64,000 bases of DNA from TM7 phylum sp. oral taxon 348 (GTDB lineage Bacteria; Patescibacteriota; Saccharimonadia; Saccharimonadales; Saccharimonadaceae), in the NCBI GenBank assembly GCA_007845485.1, contig SDRW01000001.1, positions 1 to 64,000 of the forward strand. Reading direction: 5' to 3'. The notes under the pieces are model-generated. The model was given only the letters and a program-made list of their open reading frames with translations, did no database searches and was not told the DNA's origin. Position numbers and translations under genes: made by a program. Shown one piece after another: positions 850 through 43,577 of this stretch. Position 1 is the first letter of the stretch. The number at the start of each line of letters is the position of its first letter.

Positions 850-876
850 TTAGCACTCTTGCATATTGAGTGCTAA
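850..876. promoter_or_regulatory. CIRCE operator upstream of clpB
   Basis: TTAGCACTC-N9-GAGTGCTAA is an exact match to the CIRCE consensus, the binding site of the heat-shock repressor HrcA. The 9-base spacer begins with TTGCAT, which serves as the -35 element of the clpB promoter. HrcA binding would therefore cover the polymerase contact site. Confidence 0.95.
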
Positions 877-888
877 TTTTGATATAAT
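859..888 (+). promoter_or_regulatory. clpB promoter (-35 inside CIRCE)
   Basis: TTGCAT (859-864) and TATAAT (883-888) are separated by 18 bases; the -10 starts 6 bases after the CIRCE palindrome. Transcription should start near 895, leaving a leader of about 110 bases that ends in an AGGAGG ribosome site before the ATG at 1006. Confidence 0.75.
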
Positions 889-1005
889 TGTTATTGAACA
901 CACAGACCCCCTATTCGTCATTAATCCCGAGGCTAAAATATATCAATTTAAATTCAAACAAAAATGTTTACATCTACTTAAATTAAAAAATTAAAAGGAG
1001 GAAAT

Positions 1006-3141
1006 ATGCAACCAAATCAAGATGAACAATTTAAAAAACCACTAGAGCAATTCGGTACGGATCTCACCGCTTTAGCTCATGAAAGTAAATTAGATCCAGT
1101 AGTTGGACGAGATGAAGAAATTCGACGTACAATGCAAATATTATCTAGGCGCACAAAGAATAATCCTGTACTTATTGGCGAGCCAGGTGTTGGTAAAACC
1201 GCTATCGTTGAAGCATTAGCACAAAGAATAGTGAAGGGTGATGTACCAGATTCTCTCAAAAATAAGCGTTTAATTTCACTAGAGATATCTAGTTTAGTCG
1301 CGGGTGCAAGTTACCGAGGACAATTTGAGCAACGCTTGCAAAGTGTACTTAAAGAGGTAGATGACGCGGCTGGAGAGATAATTCTATTTGTCGATGAGAT
1401 TCATACAATGGTAAAAGCTGGCGGTGGCGAAGGTAGTATGGACGCTGGCAATATGTTAAAACCCGCTCTTGCACGCGGAAAATTGCATATGATTGGGGCA
1501 ACGACTTTAGCTGAATATCGTCAAAATATTGAAAAAGACGCAGCTTTGGAACGTAGATTCCAACCAGTATTTGTAGGAGAGCCAAACTTTGACGACACAA
1601 TTGCTATATTACGTGGTCTAAAAGAAAAATATGAAGTTCACCACGGAGTTAATATCTCTGATGATGCGATTGTATCGGCCGCTCGTCTATCTACACGCTA
1701 TTTACCAGATAGATTTCTTCCAGATAAGGCGGTTGATCTACTTGATGAAGCAACTAGTTCCCTAAAGATGCAGTTAGAAAGTGTACCAATAGCACTAGAT
1801 AAATTAAACAATCGACGTTTACAACTTGAGATTGAAGAAGATGCCTTAAAAAAGGATAAATCAGAAAATGCCAAAGAGCGAAAAGAAGAAATTAAGCGCC
1901 AAATTAAAGATATATCTGAAAAAGCTAATGATTTGAATAATAGATGGCTACACGAAAAAGACATACTAAAAACAGTGAACACAGCTGCCGAAAAAATGGA
2001 TGATTTACGCGGTCAACTTGAACGTGCTGAAAGAGAAGCAGATTTAGCGACAGCTAGTCGTATAAAATATGGTGAGATCCCAGAACTAGAAAAAAAGCTT
2101 AATATCGCAAAACAAGAACTTTCTGAAATACCAACCACAGAAAGATTATTGCGTGAAGAAGTTACACCAGATGACATTGCATCGGTAGTTGCACGTTGGA
2201 CTGGCATCCCAGTAGAAAGATTGATTGAAAGTGAAAGTAGCAAATTGGCTAAATTAGAAGAATCTCTTAGTAGACAGGTTATCGGTCAAGATAAGGCAAT
2301 CGCATCCGTAGCAAGCGCAATTCGACGTTCGCGAGCAGGTCTTGGAGATATAGGTAGACCTATTGGGTCATTCCTATTTCTAGGACCAACAGGAGTTGGA
2401 AAAACAGAGGTAGCACGCAGTCTCTGTCAACAATTATTTGATGACGAACATGCTATGGTAAGAATAGATATGAGTGAATACATGGAGCAACACGCAGTCT
2501 CGCGTTTGATTGGATCGCCTCCAGGATATGTTGGATATGATCAAGGTGGTCAATTAACTGAGGCAATTCGACGTCGCCCATATAGTGTAGTTCTATTTGA
2601 CGAGATTGAAAAAGCTCACCCAGATGTATTTAATATTCTATTACAAGTTCTAGATGACGGGCGATTAACAGATGGGCAAGGACGAACCGTAGATTTTAGT
2701 AATACAATAATTATAATGACAAGCAATGTAGGCTCCCAGCTAATTATGGATTATAGCGGTGAAGACCTAACGGAACTTGATGATAAAGTCTTAGACATTC
2801 TTAGGAAACATTTTAGACCTGAGTTCCTAAATAGGATAGACGATATTGTATTGTTTGATAGAATTCGACCAGAAGCTATGAATGCAATCGTCGATATCCA
2901 ATTAATAAAGGTTGCTAAACAAATAAAAGATAGTCGAGATATAGAACTTGAATTTGATAATAGCCTAAAGGAAATGCTAGCACACGATGGTTATAATCCT
3001 GCATTTGGTGCTCGCCCTCTTAAACGTCTAATCCAAAAACGTATCTTAGACTCACTCGCGATAGAACTCATAGAGGGAAAAATCAAAGATGGCGATAATG
3101 TAAAAATTTCCTGGAAAGATAGTAAAACAATATTTACATAG
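1006..3141 (+). CDS. clpB: ClpB-type disaggregase lacking the N-terminal domain
   Basis: A Hsp100 AAA+ chaperone that, with DnaK, should extract polypeptides from aggregates in the cytoplasm. Seen: first AAA module with Walker A GEPGVGKT (58-65), a long charged middle region (about 267-377) matching the ClpB coiled-coil M domain, then the second AAA module with Walker A GPTGVGKT and the GSPPGYVG pore region. The IGF/LGF ClpP-docking loop found in ClpC and ClpA is absent, so it should act without ClpP. At 711 aa it is about 150 residues shorter than usual because the Clp_N domain is missing; the start is firm (AGGAGG 5 bases upstream). It resembles the short internal-start ClpB isoform made by other bacteria. 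Regulated by CIRCE/HrcA and closed by a terminator. Confidence 0.93.
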
Positions 3142-16786: not shown

Positions 16787-16858
16787 GATATAGCCCTTCT
16801 TGACGCCTGCAACTCTTTTCGCGCAGGATAACATATATTATATCATAATAATCATATA

Positions 16859-17464: not shown

Positions 17465-17493
17465 ATTATATACAAAAATAGCACTCTTTGCAA
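17465..17493 (-). promoter_or_regulatory. clpP promoter, leaderless, -35 inside CIRCE
   Basis: On the minus strand TTGCAA (17488-17493) and TATAAT (17465-17470) are 17 bases apart. The -10 ends 6 bases before the ATG, so transcription should begin at or next to the start codon. Confidence 0.75.
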
Positions 17494-17504
17494 TCGAGTG
17501 CTAT
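17478..17504. promoter_or_regulatory. CIRCE operator of clpP
   Basis: The 8-bp core TAGCACTC-N9-GAGTGCTA is perfect. The outermost base pair is swapped (A...T instead of T...A), so the palindrome is kept although the consensus base changed. It brackets the -35 hexamer of the clpP promoter. Confidence 0.9.
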
Positions 17505-17520
17505 TTATCTGATGCGCTCT

Positions 17521-18807
17521 CTACGCCTTAGAGTTTAAACTAACTAACCTATCTACAGTTTTTTCTGTTAGTATTCTATTTGCTACATCACGCTGTACTT
17601 CTGGAGTTTTTAAATGTTTGCGCATATCTTCGCTAGGATATTGCTTACCAAGTTGGTTTATTTTTTCAAGGAGTTCATTTTCGGTTGCTTCAATTTTTTC
17701 TACCTTGCTCAATTCCGCTAAAAGCAATCCCGCCTTAACACGCTTTTCGGCAATTGGACGAACTTCGTTTTCTAGCCAATCATTCTTATCTTTATACTTC
17801 AAGCTCTTAATGTAATCATCAATCGACATACCACGATACATTAAATTACGATTCGTATCTTGCTCGATTAATTTCATTTGATCTTTCAATAATACATCAG
17901 GTACTGGTACAGTAGATTTTTCTACTAACTCAGCTACAAGATCATCTTTTAATTTTTCAGTAGCTTCGGTTTCCTTTTGTTTAGTTATTTCCCGCTTAAT
18001 ATCATCTTCAAGCTCTTCTACGGTTTTAAATGGACCAGCTTTTGCAGCTAATTCATCGTTTAATTCTGGTTCAACTACTTCCTTAATTTCATTAATAGTT
18101 GTAGTAAATACTACTTCTGCACCCTTCAAATTATCAGCATGGTAATCTTCTGGGAAGGTAAGCTTAAGATCAAAAGTTTCACCTGTCTTTTTGCCAATAA
18201 TTCCATCTTCAAACCCAGGAATAAAACTATTACTACCTAAAACCAAATCATACTTTTCGCCTTTGCCACCATCAAAAGCGATTCCATCTTTTTTACCTTC
18301 AAAGTCTATATTAACCTCGTCAGTTAATTTAGCAGGTCTTTGGACTGTCTTTTTAGAAGAAAAACCTTTCTTAAGTCGATCTGTAATTTCAGCTATGTCT
18401 TTTTTTGTAACACTAACTTTTTTAGCAGTAGATTTAAGATTTTTATAATCGCCAATCTTGATTTTTGGCATAACCTCGCTCTCGGCTGTAAATTCAAGTT
18501 CGCTACCAGGCACAAACTTTTTTACTTCAACCTCAGGTCTATCGAGCGCCTGAAGTTTTTCGCTAATAAACGCATCAGCCACCGCCTTAGAAAGTGCACT
18601 CTCTAGAGTTTTCTGTGCTAACATGTTTGGATTTACATTTTTAGAAACTACACTTACAGGAACCTTGCCTTTACGGAATCCAGGAACCTTTATATCCTTG
18701 CCTAGTTCATTTAAAGCAGCTAGCTCTGCATCTTTCAGTTCTGATAATCCCAAAGTAACATTAACAGCTACTTTTGTATCCGATAAATACTTTACACTTG
18801 TCTTCAT
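17521..18807 (-). CDS. tig: Trigger factor, ribosome-bound chaperone
   Basis: Ribosome-associated chaperone and peptidyl-prolyl isomerase that meets nascent chains at the exit tunnel. At 428 aa it is near the usual length. The N-terminal ribosome-binding domain has the GFRKGKVP signature (about residue 44-51, usually GFRxGKxP); the FKBP-like domain follows (about 155-240), then the helical C-terminal chaperone arms. TATACT/TATACA elements lie 10 and 5 bases before the ATG without an SD, so the mRNA is probably near-leaderless. tig upstream of clpP is a common bacterial arrangement; clpX does not follow here. Confidence 0.95.
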   Translation of the reverse strand: MKTSVKYLSDTKVAVNVTLGLSELKDAELAALNELGKDIKVPGFRKGKVPVSVVSKNVNPNMLAQKTLESALSKAVADAFISEKLQALDRPEVEVKKFVPGSELEFTAESEVMPKIKIGDYKNLKSTAKKVSVTKKDIAEITDRLKKGFSSKKTVQRPAKLTDEVNIDFEGKKDGIAFDGGKGEKYDLVLGSNSFIPGFEDGIIGKKTGETFDLKLTFPEDYHADNLKGAEVVFTTTINEIKEVVEPELNDELAAKAGPFKTVEELEDDIKREITKQKETEATEKLKDDLVAELVEKSTVPVPDVLLKDQMKLIEQDTNRNLMYRGMSIDDYIKSLKYKDKNDWLENEVRPIAEKRVKAGLLLAELSKVEKIEATENELLEKINQLGKQYPSEDMRKHLKTPEVQRDVANRILTEKTVDRLVSLNSKA

Positions 18808-38965: not shown

Positions 38966-39958
38966 TTATATACTAGGAGCTGGAGCCAACGTGCTATCCA
39001 TAGCCTTATACATACTATTTGACTCATCTACCAATTTATTATATTCAATTCGTTTTGATTCATATTGACTAATATATCTATTAATATTAGCTCTATCTTG
39101 CTCAAGCTTGCGCGTTGATTTAATTAGATATCTTCGCTCGTTCAAAAAATCCTCCTGAGAAGAAAAATCACCATTCTTAGCCCTAGAGTTAAAGGTATTT
39201 ATCTCGCTATTTAGATTAGATATATCTTTATTATATTTAAGTGATGCATTATTAATGCTAATAGAAAGATTTTCAAGTTCCTTACGCAAGCTAGCTGAAC
39301 CCCGTTTTAATTCTTTAAATTTATCATTGTATTTTGAATGTAGAGCAACAACTTGTGAGCGATTATTAAAATATCTTTTATAATAATCCTCAAGCTGAGG
39401 GGAAATATCAGCAAACTCTGTACCTATAATAGAATGAAGTTCATTATATTCCTCACCAGGTTGGTTGCGTTTATAATAATCCATACGCTTAGAGAATTCT
39501 GCATCACTATTTTTTCTATATTCTTTTTCGAGCAAGGTGTTTACTGCTTTTTTATCAGATTCAGGCAAACGTTCATAAGCTGCATGAAGCATTTCGTGAG
39601 CTGCTGTAACTTCTTTTAGACCGTTTAATCGCTCATCATTTACATTATATATATAGATTCTTTGGTTTTTATAGCATCCCAAAATTGCATTGCCTTGCTC
39701 TCTACTCCTGCACTCCCCATTGAATTCCTTTGCAAAATCTAACTCTGGACGTGATGCAAAATAATAAAATCTGCCATTTTCATTTAATTCTACATCGTTA
39801 GCAATTTGCGCAATCTCAGGACTAGGCTTAAACTCCCATGCATTATACTTATCAATAATATATTGACGATTGAGGATAGCTACAGCTACAACACAAGCAA
39901 TAATACATAAATTAATTACAGCCAATAATAATGATTTATGACTTCTCATCTGATTCAT
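38966..39958 (-). CDS. Membrane-anchored HExxH metalloprotease-like protein with coiled coil
   Basis: An N-terminal membrane helix (about 10-30), then a domain of about 150 residues containing AAHEMLHAAY, an HExxH zincin motif (His121, Glu122, His125), with a candidate third ligand Glu in the GTEFAD stretch about 50 residues later. Residues 185-315 are a long heptad-like coiled coil rich in Lys, Glu, Asn and Leu. The family is not one I can name. It is inserted between clpC and radA and overlaps clpC by 23 bases, using an SD-like AAGGGTGG inside clpC. It is probably membrane-bound with the catalytic part outside. Confidence 0.7.
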   Translation of the reverse strand: MNQMRSHKSLLLAVINLCIIACVVAVAILNRQYIIDKYNAWEFKPSPEIAQIANDVELNENGRFYYFASRPELDFAKEFNGECRSREQGNAILGCYKNQRIYIYNVNDERLNGLKEVTAAHEMLHAAYERLPESDKKAVNTLLEKEYRKNSDAEFSKRMDYYKRNQPGEEYNELHSIIGTEFADISPQLEDYYKRYFNNRSQVVALHSKYNDKFKELKRGSASLRKELENLSISINNASLKYNKDISNLNSEINTFNSRAKNGDFSSQEDFLNERRYLIKSTRKLEQDRANINRYISQYESKRIEYNKLVDESNSMYKAMDSTLAPAPSI

Positions 39959-42401
39959 AACCACCCTTCATACATATATTACCACGTTTTGAATAAACTG
40001 TAATTATAGTCCCCGCTACAAAGTCACCCTTAATAATACCTTCAGCAATTGGATGCTCAATTATATCTTCAATAGTTCTACGAAGTGGACGAACACCATA
40101 TTTTTTACTATACCCTTTGTTAATTAAAATTTTCTTTGCACTGGGACTCAGTACTAATGATATCCCTTTTCTAGATAATCTATCTTTAAGATCGTTTATA
40201 AATAGATCAACAATCTGATTAACTTGCTTCCTTTCGAGCGCCCTAAAAGTTATTATACTATCAAATCTATTAATTAACTCAGGTGGCATAAACTCATCTA
40301 GGGCGGCGCGAGCTGCTTCAGCGTTATGTTTATGTACATCATCAAACTGACGGCGATCCTTAGCGTTTGCTATCATAAATCCGAGTTCTGATTCCTTTTG
40401 CATAGCTTCAGCGCCAAGGTTACTTGTTAAAATTACTATTGTATTTGTAAAATCAACACTTCTACCTTGTCCATCGGTTATAGTCCCATCTTCTAAAAGT
40501 TGTAGTAATAAGTGAAAAATCGAAGGATGCGCTTTTTCAATTTCATCAAATAAAACTACACTGTATGGCTGGCGACGAATTTTGTCTGTAAGTTGCCCGC
40601 CATCATCGTAACCTATATAACCCGCGGGAGCACCAATGAGACGGCTAGCTGTGTGTTTTTCAGAGAATTCACTCATATCAATTTTGACCAGATTATCATT
40701 ACTACCAAATATTTCGCGTGCTAAGACCCTGGCAAGTTCAGTTTTACCAACGCCAGTAGGACCCATAAAAATAAAACTCCCCATTGGTCGACTACTATTA
40801 GCAATTCCACTACGACTAAGCCTAATAGAATTAGCAACTTTTACTACGGCATCATTTTGTCCAATTAAATATTTACCTAAATGTTTTTCTAGATTTACCA
40901 GCATTCTTTGCTCGCTTTTTTGTAATTTTTCCGATGGAATACCTGTAATATTTGAAGTAGCTTTAGCAATATCATCAATAGTTACGGGAAATGTTTTACG
41001 TTTTTTATTGGCTTTGTTATATTGTTTTTTCAATTGTAAAAGCTTCGTTTTTAAATCTGCGGCTTCTTTATATTCCTCATTCTGAGAAGCGTTGTTTATT
41101 CTAGACTCTAAGTTATCTATTTCGTCAGCCATATTAGCAATAGATATATTATTATTACCAACACGCACACGCACCAATGCAGATGCCTCATCCAGTACGT
41201 CTATAGCCTTATCTGGCATAAACCTATCTTTTATATATCGATCAGCTAGGTAAACAACATTTTCTAGTATTTCATCACTAATCAGAACATTATGATGTTT
41301 TTGATAATTTTCACGTAAACCTCGCAAAATAGCCATAACCTCACTCTTAGAAGGTTCTTTGGCTATAATTGACTGAAATCTACGTGTAAGTGCGCTATCT
41401 TTTTCTATATGTTTTTTATATTCATCTAAAGTGGTAGCTCCAATTAGTCTAATTTCACCTCGCGCCAAAGCTGGCTTTAATAAATTAGCACCGTCCATAG
41501 ATCCCTCGGCAGCTCCTGCGCCAACTAGAAGATGAATCTCATCTATAAATAAAATTACATCAGATGACTTCTTAACCGCCGCGATAATGCGTCTAACTCG
41601 CTCTTCAAATTCGCCACGATATTTAGTTCCAGATATTACAGATGCAAGATCAATTTGAATAATTGACATATTGCGAAGATGAACTGGAACCGACCCTTCA
41701 GCAATCTTTAAGGCCAGACCCTCTACAATTGCAGTTTTACCAACACCAGGTTCCCCAATTAGCAAAGGATTATTTTTGCGGCGACGACTTAGAATAGTAA
41801 TAATTCTAGTTATCTCCTTAGAGCGCCCTATAACAGAGTCTAATTCACCTTGACGAGCCTTTTGAGTTAAATCGACTCCAAATTGCTTTAGAATATTTTT
41901 AAATTTTTCCCTAGGAATTTGGTCAGTTTCTATATTTTGAGTACGATTTTGATTATTTATATGGTCTTCTATTAAAGTTACAATACTTCCCGTATGCACA
42001 CCTAATCTACCAAGAAGCTCTGAAGCTTTGCTCTTTTCCTGAACTAGCAAGCCATGCAATATATGTTCTGTTCCAAGGTAACTACTACCATATTCCTCAG
42101 CCAATTGCCAAGCCATCTTCAAAGATACTTGAGCGGGCTCAGTTAGAGTATTAATACCAATCTTTATTCGTCTAAGACCAGGTTTTAGATTTAAAGCTTG
42201 CTCAGCTTTATCTAACGTCACTCCCGATTCAATTAAAATTTTCGCACCAAGACTATCCCCTTGCGCCAAAATTCCAAGCAAAAGATATTCAGTTCCAATT
42301 AAGGTGCTACCGTATCCACGCGCAATAGAATCCGCATAATATAAACTTGTACGCGCCTCTTCATTAAGTCTTCCAATAAAATCAGGGAAATTATCTGGCA
42401 T
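39936..42401 (-). CDS. clpC: ClpC-type AAA+ unfoldase
   Basis: Hsp100 unfoldase that feeds ClpP. Two N-terminal Clp_N repeats (about 1-145), AAA-1 with GEPGVGKT (about 205-212), a short middle domain with a UVR-like [13 protein letters not shown] helix, and AAA-2 with GPTGVGKT. The ClpP-docking loop is present as ELGFM (near 672), distinguishing it from the clpB product in this window. The ATG at 42401 (MPDNF) is chosen: a GTG nine codons upstream lies inside the CIRCE operator and before the -10 element. A TATAAT ends 6 bases before the ATG, so the mRNA from this promoter is leaderless. Read-through from nusA is also possible. Confidence 0.95.
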
Positions 42402-42407
42402 ATTTAC

Positions 42408-42436
42408 ATTATAACAATAACTTAGCACTCACGCAA
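42408..42436 (-). promoter_or_regulatory. clpC promoter, leaderless, -35 inside CIRCE
   Basis: On the minus strand TTGCGT (42431-42436) and TATAAT (42408-42413) are 17 bases apart. The -10 ends 6 bases before the start codon and no SD is present. Confidence 0.75.
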
Positions 42437-42448
42437 TATGAGTGCTAA
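42422..42448. promoter_or_regulatory. CIRCE operator of clpC
   Basis: TTAGCACTC-N9-GAGTGCTAA is an exact CIRCE match in the 72-base gap between nusA and clpC. The palindrome brackets the -35 hexamer, so HrcA should block the clpC promoter and may also act as a roadblock to transcription arriving from nusA. Confidence 0.95.
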
Positions 42449-42473: not shown

Positions 42474-43577
42474 TTATTGATCGTTTTCTTCTAATGCACT
42501 AAATAGGCTATCCTCAATATTTTTACGAGGCTTTTCAATTACTTCATTCGCTTGTTTAGTTTCAATATCAATTTCATATCCAGTTAATCTACTAGCCAGT
42601 CTTACATTCTGACCACCACGGCCAATAGCAACAGATTGCTGATCCTCGGTTACAAAAACCTTTGCGCGCTTATTTTCTTCATCAACCTCAACCGAAGAAA
42701 CTTCTGCAGGACTAAGTGCATTACGGATGTAATTCTCAATATCATCCTCAAAAGGAATTATATCAATCTTTTCATTCATTACAGCCTGCACACGTGTTCC
42801 ATGACCACCGACAAAAGTACCAACAGCATCAACACCTGGAACAGTGCTAGATACAGCAAGTTTAGTACGACGTCCAGCCTCGCGAGCAATTCCTTTAATC
42901 TCTACAGCACCAGCATCCATTTCAGGTACTTCCTGATTAAATAATCGCTCCATAAATAATTCGCTAGCACGAGTCAAAATAAGCTGAGGGCCACGATTTT
43001 CACGTTCAATATCTTTAATTAGAACTTTTATTCGCGAACCTACACTATATCTTTCACCCTGAATCTGCTCACTTTGTGGTAAAATACCAGATGCTTTACC
43101 AAGCTCAATACGTACAACACGAGGTTCAACTCGCTGAACAATACCAGTAACCATTGTGCCAATTTTATCTTCAAATTCAGACAACATAACATCACGCTCA
43201 GCTTCTCGTAGTCTCTGCAATACAACTTGTTTAGCAGTTTGAGCAGCAACTCGCCCAAAAGAAGTTACTTCATGTTCATCTTCAATTACATCGCCAAGTT
43301 CTATTTCTGGTTTAATCTTTTTTGCATCATCTAAGCTAATTTCTTTTACAGGATTTTCAACCTCTTCCACTACAGTTCGTATTACAAAAACTTTTGCAGT
43401 ACCTTCAACGGTATTTAACTCTGCGCGAACATTTTGTTCCCTCTCGCCATTATCTCGACGCCAAGCAGCTGCAATTGCTTGCTCGATAACACTTAAAACT
43501 GTTTCCTCGGGCAAGTTTTTTTCTTCAGCTATTGCACGAACCGCCAATGTCAATTGCTTTAAATTTATATCTTCCAT
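42474..43577 (-). CDS. nusA: Transcription termination/antitermination factor NusA
   Basis: Binds RNA polymerase and nascent RNA, promoting pausing and intrinsic termination. At 367 aa it matches the short form found in B. subtilis, without the C-terminal acidic repeats of E. coli. N-terminal polymerase-binding domain (about 1-125), S1 domain (about 135-200), then two KH domains ending in the AIGRGGQNVRLA motif (about 315-326). AAAGGAG lies 6 bases before the ATG. The usual neighbours rimP and infB are absent. Its own leader holds an intrinsic terminator. Confidence 0.97.
   Translation of the reverse strand: MEDINLKQLTLAVRAIAEEKNLPEETVLSVIEQAIAAAWRRDNGEREQNVRAELNTVEGTAKVFVIRTVVEEVENPVKEISLDDAKKIKPEIELGDVIEDEHEVTSFGRVAAQTAKQVVLQRLREAERDVMLSEFEDKIGTMVTGIVQRVEPRVVRIELGKASGILPQSEQIQGERYSVGSRIKVLIKDIERENRGPQLILTRASELFMERLFNQEVPEMDAGAVEIKGIAREAGRRTKLAVSSTVPGVDAVGTFVGGHGTRVQAVMNEKIDIIPFEDDIENYIRNALSPAEVSSVEVDEENKRAKVFVTEDQQSVAIGRGGQNVRLASRLTGYEIDIETKQANEVIEKPRKNIEDSLFSALEENDQ

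Follow-up and report, generated by a model that had tools for sequence, protein, structure and literature searches.

Saccharibacteria are very small bacteria that grow on the cells of other bacteria. The 64,000-nucleotide stretch analyzed here (the window), which makes up the first part of a 370-kb contig in an assembly of 890 kb, carries three matches to CIRCE, the operator of the heat shock repressor HrcA, in front of clpB, clpP, and clpC, where 0.01 matches would be expected from shuffling. The locus raises the question of whether these genes form a heat shock circuit of their own, as an earlier note on this DNA had claimed, or belong to a wider one, and of how such an operator could act when it encloses a promoter element. 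The descriptive part of that note held: the three operators deviate from the consensus at 0 (clpB), 2 (clpP), and 0 (clpC) positions, and each spacer contains a -35-like hexamer 17 to 18 bp from a TATAAT that starts 6 to 8 bases past the palindrome (Table 1). Both changes in the clpP operator fall at the outermost mirror positions, so that its palindrome is still perfect.

Table 1. Operators, predicted promoter elements, and genes at the three clp loci (window coordinates)
Feature	Position	Strand	Basis
CIRCE operator of clpB, TTAGCACTC-TTGCATATT-GAGTGCTAA	850..876	+	Exact consensus match
clpB -35 TTGCAT, within CIRCE spacer	859..864	+	Sequence; position class-wide
clpB -10 TATAAT, 18 bp from -35	883..888	+	Sequence
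clpB Shine-Dalgarno AGGAGG	996..1001	+	Sequence
clpB, 711 aa, without the ClpB N-terminal domain	1006..3141	+	TIGR03346 match from position 148; no Clp_N
clpP, 199 aa	16859..17458	-	NF001368
clpP -10 TATAAT	17465..17470	-	Sequence
CIRCE operator of clpP, ATAGCACTC-GATTGCAAA-GAGTGCTAT (gene strand)	17478..17504	-	CIRCE scan; mirror-symmetric end changes
clpP -35 TTGCAA, within CIRCE spacer, 17 bp from -10	17488..17493	-	Sequence
tig (trigger factor), upstream neighbor of clpP	17521..18807	-	TIGR00115
clpC, 821 aa, ATG 42401	39936..42401	-	Clp_N and AAA domains
clpC -10 TATAAT	42408..42413	-	Sequence
CIRCE operator of clpC, TTAGCACTC-ATATTGCGT-GAGTGCTAA (gene strand)	42422..42448	-	Exact consensus match
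clpC -35 TTGCGT, within CIRCE spacer, 17 bp from -10	42431..42436	-	Sequence
nusA, upstream neighbor of clpC	42474..43577	-	TIGR01953

At clpP and clpC, operator and promoter together occupy 46 to 47 bp from the start of CIRCE to the start codon, and they are fitted into the tight gaps behind tig and nusA, respectively. Since the ATG of both genes stands 6 nt past the -10 (for clpC, this is the best placement of the start), their mRNAs are predicted to be leaderless. Unlike them, clpB has a predicted leader of ca. 110 nt with a Shine-Dalgarno sequence; an RNA thermometer in this leader was considered and rejected, as it folds worse than shuffled sequences (z 1.9). In the 30 related genomes that were read in detail (one per genus), predicted starts lie 5 to 10 nt after the -10 at 17 of 24 clpP genes, 21 of 30 hrcA genes, and 5 of 26 clpC genes. 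Within the window, about one-fourth of the genes have a -10-like hexamer 4 to 10 nt before the start codon (for example, those starting at 16834, 17458, 42401, 45461, 47190, 47934, and 50876), which suggests that leaderless mRNAs may be common in this genome. The short clpB, which lacks the N-terminal domain, is also found in three related genera (G046, G021, and G107), while the open frames of G061 and G012 are of full length; only 6 of the 30 relatives have the gene.

Scanning the whole assembly for TTAGCACTC-N9-GAGTGCTAA gave ten CIRCE sites, three of them in the window. The other seven belong to dnaJ, dnaK (two sites), hrcA-grpE, groES, hsp20, and a second hsp20 on contig C6, and the predicted dnaK promoter (TTGACA-18-TATAAT) again has its -35 inside the CIRCE spacer. 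The repressor gene, whose presence the earlier note had left to be checked, was found at C5:228779-229492 (L150:1171-1881) and carries a CIRCE of its own at C5:229512. Because the ten sites include the chaperone genes and hrcA, the clp sites are part of one full, wide HrcA regulon and not a separate Clp circuit, and the notion of a three-gene regulon applies to the window only. We set aside the C6 hsp20 as a member of this regulon, given that the assembly is 7.67% contaminated and that C6, an 18-kb contig, has a GC content of ca. 50% versus 37 to 39% elsewhere (37% for the assembly); this contig probably stems from contamination by a related organism. Two of the sites share the intergenic region between dnaK and a divergent gene for a 637-aa alpha/beta-hydrolase-like protein (C5:226262-228175; L012:7263-9176), which may be coregulated.

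The arrangement extends far beyond this genome, to a group that named matches assign to Candidatus Saccharibacteria. CIRCE-like sites were present in all 147 genomes of the class, usually four to nine in each, while other Patescibacteria have fewer (0 to 5 per genome). Among the 30 relatives, CIRCE is found upstream of hrcA in all, of clpC in 26, and of clpP in 24, as well as in front of clpB in each of the six genomes that have it; on this point, the relatives bear out the earlier note. In two genomes, G046 and G014, neither clpP nor clpC has a CIRCE, and these are real absences. Some of the remaining absences at clpP may be operonic, since in G018, G045, and G006 the gene lies behind either a clpC that carries CIRCE or a gene of the size of tig (the clpC of G006 runs off its contig).

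To what extent the hexamers in the spacers are promoter elements can be judged from their orientation. TTGAC or TTGCA stands in the sense of the gene at 59 of 86 sites and in antisense at 4, and shuffled spacers gave a mean of 1.8 and a maximum of 7. In 58 of the 59 cases, a TA...T follows 16 to 18 bp downstream, a number that ranged from 1 to 12 in windows of the same size elsewhere. Moreover, the hexamer is offset by 0, 1, 2, or 4 bases within the spacer, and the position of the -10 moves along with it. Roughly 30% of the sites, including that of hrcA in the present genome, have no clear TTGAC or TTGCA in the spacer. Judged by these patterns, spacer hexamers and -10s are promoters, strongly oriented and class-wide, because a symmetric operator motif would be neither oriented nor shift together with the -10. 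The same figures bear on a different explanation, namely, that HrcA recognizes the TTGAC of the spacer as part of its site and that the true promoter lies elsewhere. An enrichment of the hexamer in the operators of a single clade would fit this, and counted on either strand it does occur at 37 of 58 listed sites of Saccharimonadia versus 5 of 66 of other Patescibacteria (Fisher p ~1.5e-11, a value that is indicative only, since the direction of the gene does not enter the count and genomes that are related do not make independent samples). However, the site of a symmetric dimer needs no preference for the gene sense (59 versus 4), nor would a recognition element be expected to float over offsets 0 to 4 while the -10 keeps its distance of 17 to 18 bp from it, and we regard this explanation as very unlikely.

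Even less credible is that the sites are relics devoid of regulation, preserved through their overlap with promoters. Some bases do belong to operator and promoter alike, through which selection acting on the promoter could maintain part of the operator, and HrcA has lost a domain (see below), yet most of each arm lies outside the -35 and -10, and the arms are nearly perfect across many genera. Where a site has two arm changes, these fall at mirror positions in 13 of 29 cases (6.4 expected), and all 13 pairs are still complementary, i.e., the palindrome is preserved. The retention of hrcA with its own CIRCE in 30 of 30 relatives also speaks against relics. We thus prefer to consider the three clp sites as HrcA operators of one wide heat shock regulon, typical of Saccharibacteria, that are laid over the promoters and would act by excluding polymerase, a reading to which we assign a probability of about 0.88.

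The repressor itself is short. HrcA measures ca. 235 aa in this genome and 230 to 246 aa in the 30 relatives where complete. Its winged-helix (PF03444, 24.4 against a cutoff of 21) and C-terminal (PF01628, 62.9 against 22.2) domains both exceed the Pfam thresholds, and the match to the full-length model TIGR00331 stays below the curated cutoff (177.6 versus 197.2 bits), with profile positions ca. 124 to 229 absent. None of the 30 relatives exceeds that cutoff either; their matches cover positions 1 to 124 and resume at ca. 180 to 230, with the middle missing. A shorter NCBIfam model of the family, PRK03911, has 264 positions. Full-length relatives of the protein have a clean additional block of ca. 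100 residues, and when mapped on the Thermotoga HrcA structure 1STZ, parts 16-138 and 234-330 are matched and ca. 139-233 are absent. This missing block, which we take to be the inserted dimerizing domain of the solved structure, is lacking in essentially every HrcA found in Patescibacteria, where the gene was detected in 104 of 116 genomes with open frames nearly all of 230 to 280 aa (range, 219 to 326). An AlphaFold2 model of the saccharibacterial HrcA of a relative (L196; pLDDT 93.5) fits 1STZ over 228 of 237 residues (Z 23, 2.4 A), and the short protein thus retains the DNA-binding and C-terminal domains. Binding of DNA as a dimer is not self-evident for the short protein, since the block that was lost appears to be the dimerizing domain. 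Short HrcA-like genes (238 to 245 aa) with no CIRCE nearby were also seen in MAGs labeled Actinomycetota (L234, L236, L237, and L249); these are either contigs of CPR bacteria that were misbinned or a short HrcA in its own right.

The clp genes of low-GC Gram-positive bacteria are the classical domain of another repressor, CtsR, and in Streptococcus salivarius clpP has both CIRCE and CtsR sites. The earlier note had suggested that HrcA took over the whole Clp branch here. We found no match to CtsR (PF05848 and PF17727) in this genome or in the 147 of the class, a negative of limited weight, as these searches gave a match in only 1 of 14 control genomes (Lactococcus). The window contains no exact RGTCAAA-N3-RGTCAAA box. 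A replacement of CtsR is not demonstrable from this, as CtsR is seen nowhere in the class and may never have been present. Displacement of an ancestral CtsR by HrcA at the clp genes as the genome shrank would be a matter of history and compatible with our preferred explanation of the sites; the presence of CIRCE at clp genes and the failure to find CtsR are what such a history would leave behind. With no CtsR match in the class and no exact box in the window, nothing points to a former CtsR, and even allowing for a possibly insensitive search (1 of 14 controls), we deem the replacement unlikely. Nor does HrcA appear to control the entire branch: a second Clp-type ATPase gene (C5:190862-193324; L276:2363-4825) has no CIRCE, and G046 and G014 have none at clpP and clpC. 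This second large ATPase is a double-AAA protein without Clp_N, and similar matches occur in most of the 30 relatives.

Compared with the HrcA/CIRCE system of Firmicutes (Bacillus and others), the operator consensus, the repressor family, the hrcA-grpE, dnaK, and groE targets, and the autoregulatory site are alike. The two differ in other respects: in Firmicutes-type hrcA loci with full-length HrcA (ca. 340 aa), CIRCE is placed behind a complete promoter in 22 of 23 cases and never contains the -35, whereas in Saccharibacteria CIRCE surrounds the -35, the repressor has ca. 235 aa, and the set of genes with sites takes in clp genes. Control of clpB by HrcA is already known from Mollicutes with reduced genomes (Mycoplasma gallisepticum and Spiroplasma melliferum), where, in addition to dnaK/dnaJ, both clpB and lon have CIRCE (PMC4245973, PMC5138195); the available portions of these papers list no CIRCE at clpP or clpC, in contrast to the clpP and clpC sites with a -35 in the spacer described here. 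In the CtsR regulon of low-GC Gram-positive bacteria, clpC, clpP, and other clp genes are controlled together (PMC3472708), but by a different repressor and operator, of which neither was found here (exact box in the window; CtsR search with a control matching in 1 of 14). Epsilonproteobacteria (Campylobacter and Helicobacter) resemble Saccharibacteria in that HrcA sits on core promoters, where repression in Campylobacter is thought to be steric (PMC7464140), and differ from them in that HrcA acts jointly with HspR and, in C. jejuni, covers the transcription start (PMC7464140). In our search, which mostly covered literature other than subscription papers and preprints, no paper turned up that deals with either HrcA or its operator in Saccharibacteria or in candidate phyla. 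Thus, HrcA control of clpB and lon and steric repression at core promoters are known, and the class-wide combination of clpP and clpC sites, a -35 within the operator, and a short HrcA appears to be new.

How the circuit might operate can be pictured from the geometry of the sites. The -35 lies in the 9-base spacer, where CIRCE has no sequence requirement, and the stretch up to the -10 is taken up by the downstream arm, so HrcA and RNA polymerase could probably not occupy a clp promoter together. At normal temperature, a dimer of the short HrcA on the two arms would keep polymerase off the -35. Upon heat shock, HrcA would be inactivated and release its operators, and clpB, clpP, clpC, dnaK, dnaJ, groES, hsp20, and hrcA-grpE would be induced jointly. 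Binding, exclusion of polymerase, heat induction, and dimerization through the remaining domains are what we infer from these arrangements. A more far-reaching version, which we hold tentatively and at slightly less than even odds, is that one stripped-down HrcA without the inserted dimerizing domain runs Hsp70, Hsp60, Hsp20, and ClpB/ClpC/ClpP by competing with RNA polymerase for an operator-embedded -35, on promoter-operators of ca. 46 bp that often give leaderless mRNAs. If true, HrcA must dimerize and sense heat via its two remaining domains, and the naturally shortened protein would provide a test of the purpose of the inserted one.

For Saccharibacteria, a group with little known regulation and with no paper found that links it to HrcA or CIRCE, these sites therefore outline a concrete and testable heat shock circuit. 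They would extend a well-known heat shock switch to the Clp disaggregase and protease genes, besides the usual chaperone genes, and they represent a shift, across a whole clade, in the place of a classic operator, which lies around the -35 and not behind the promoter.
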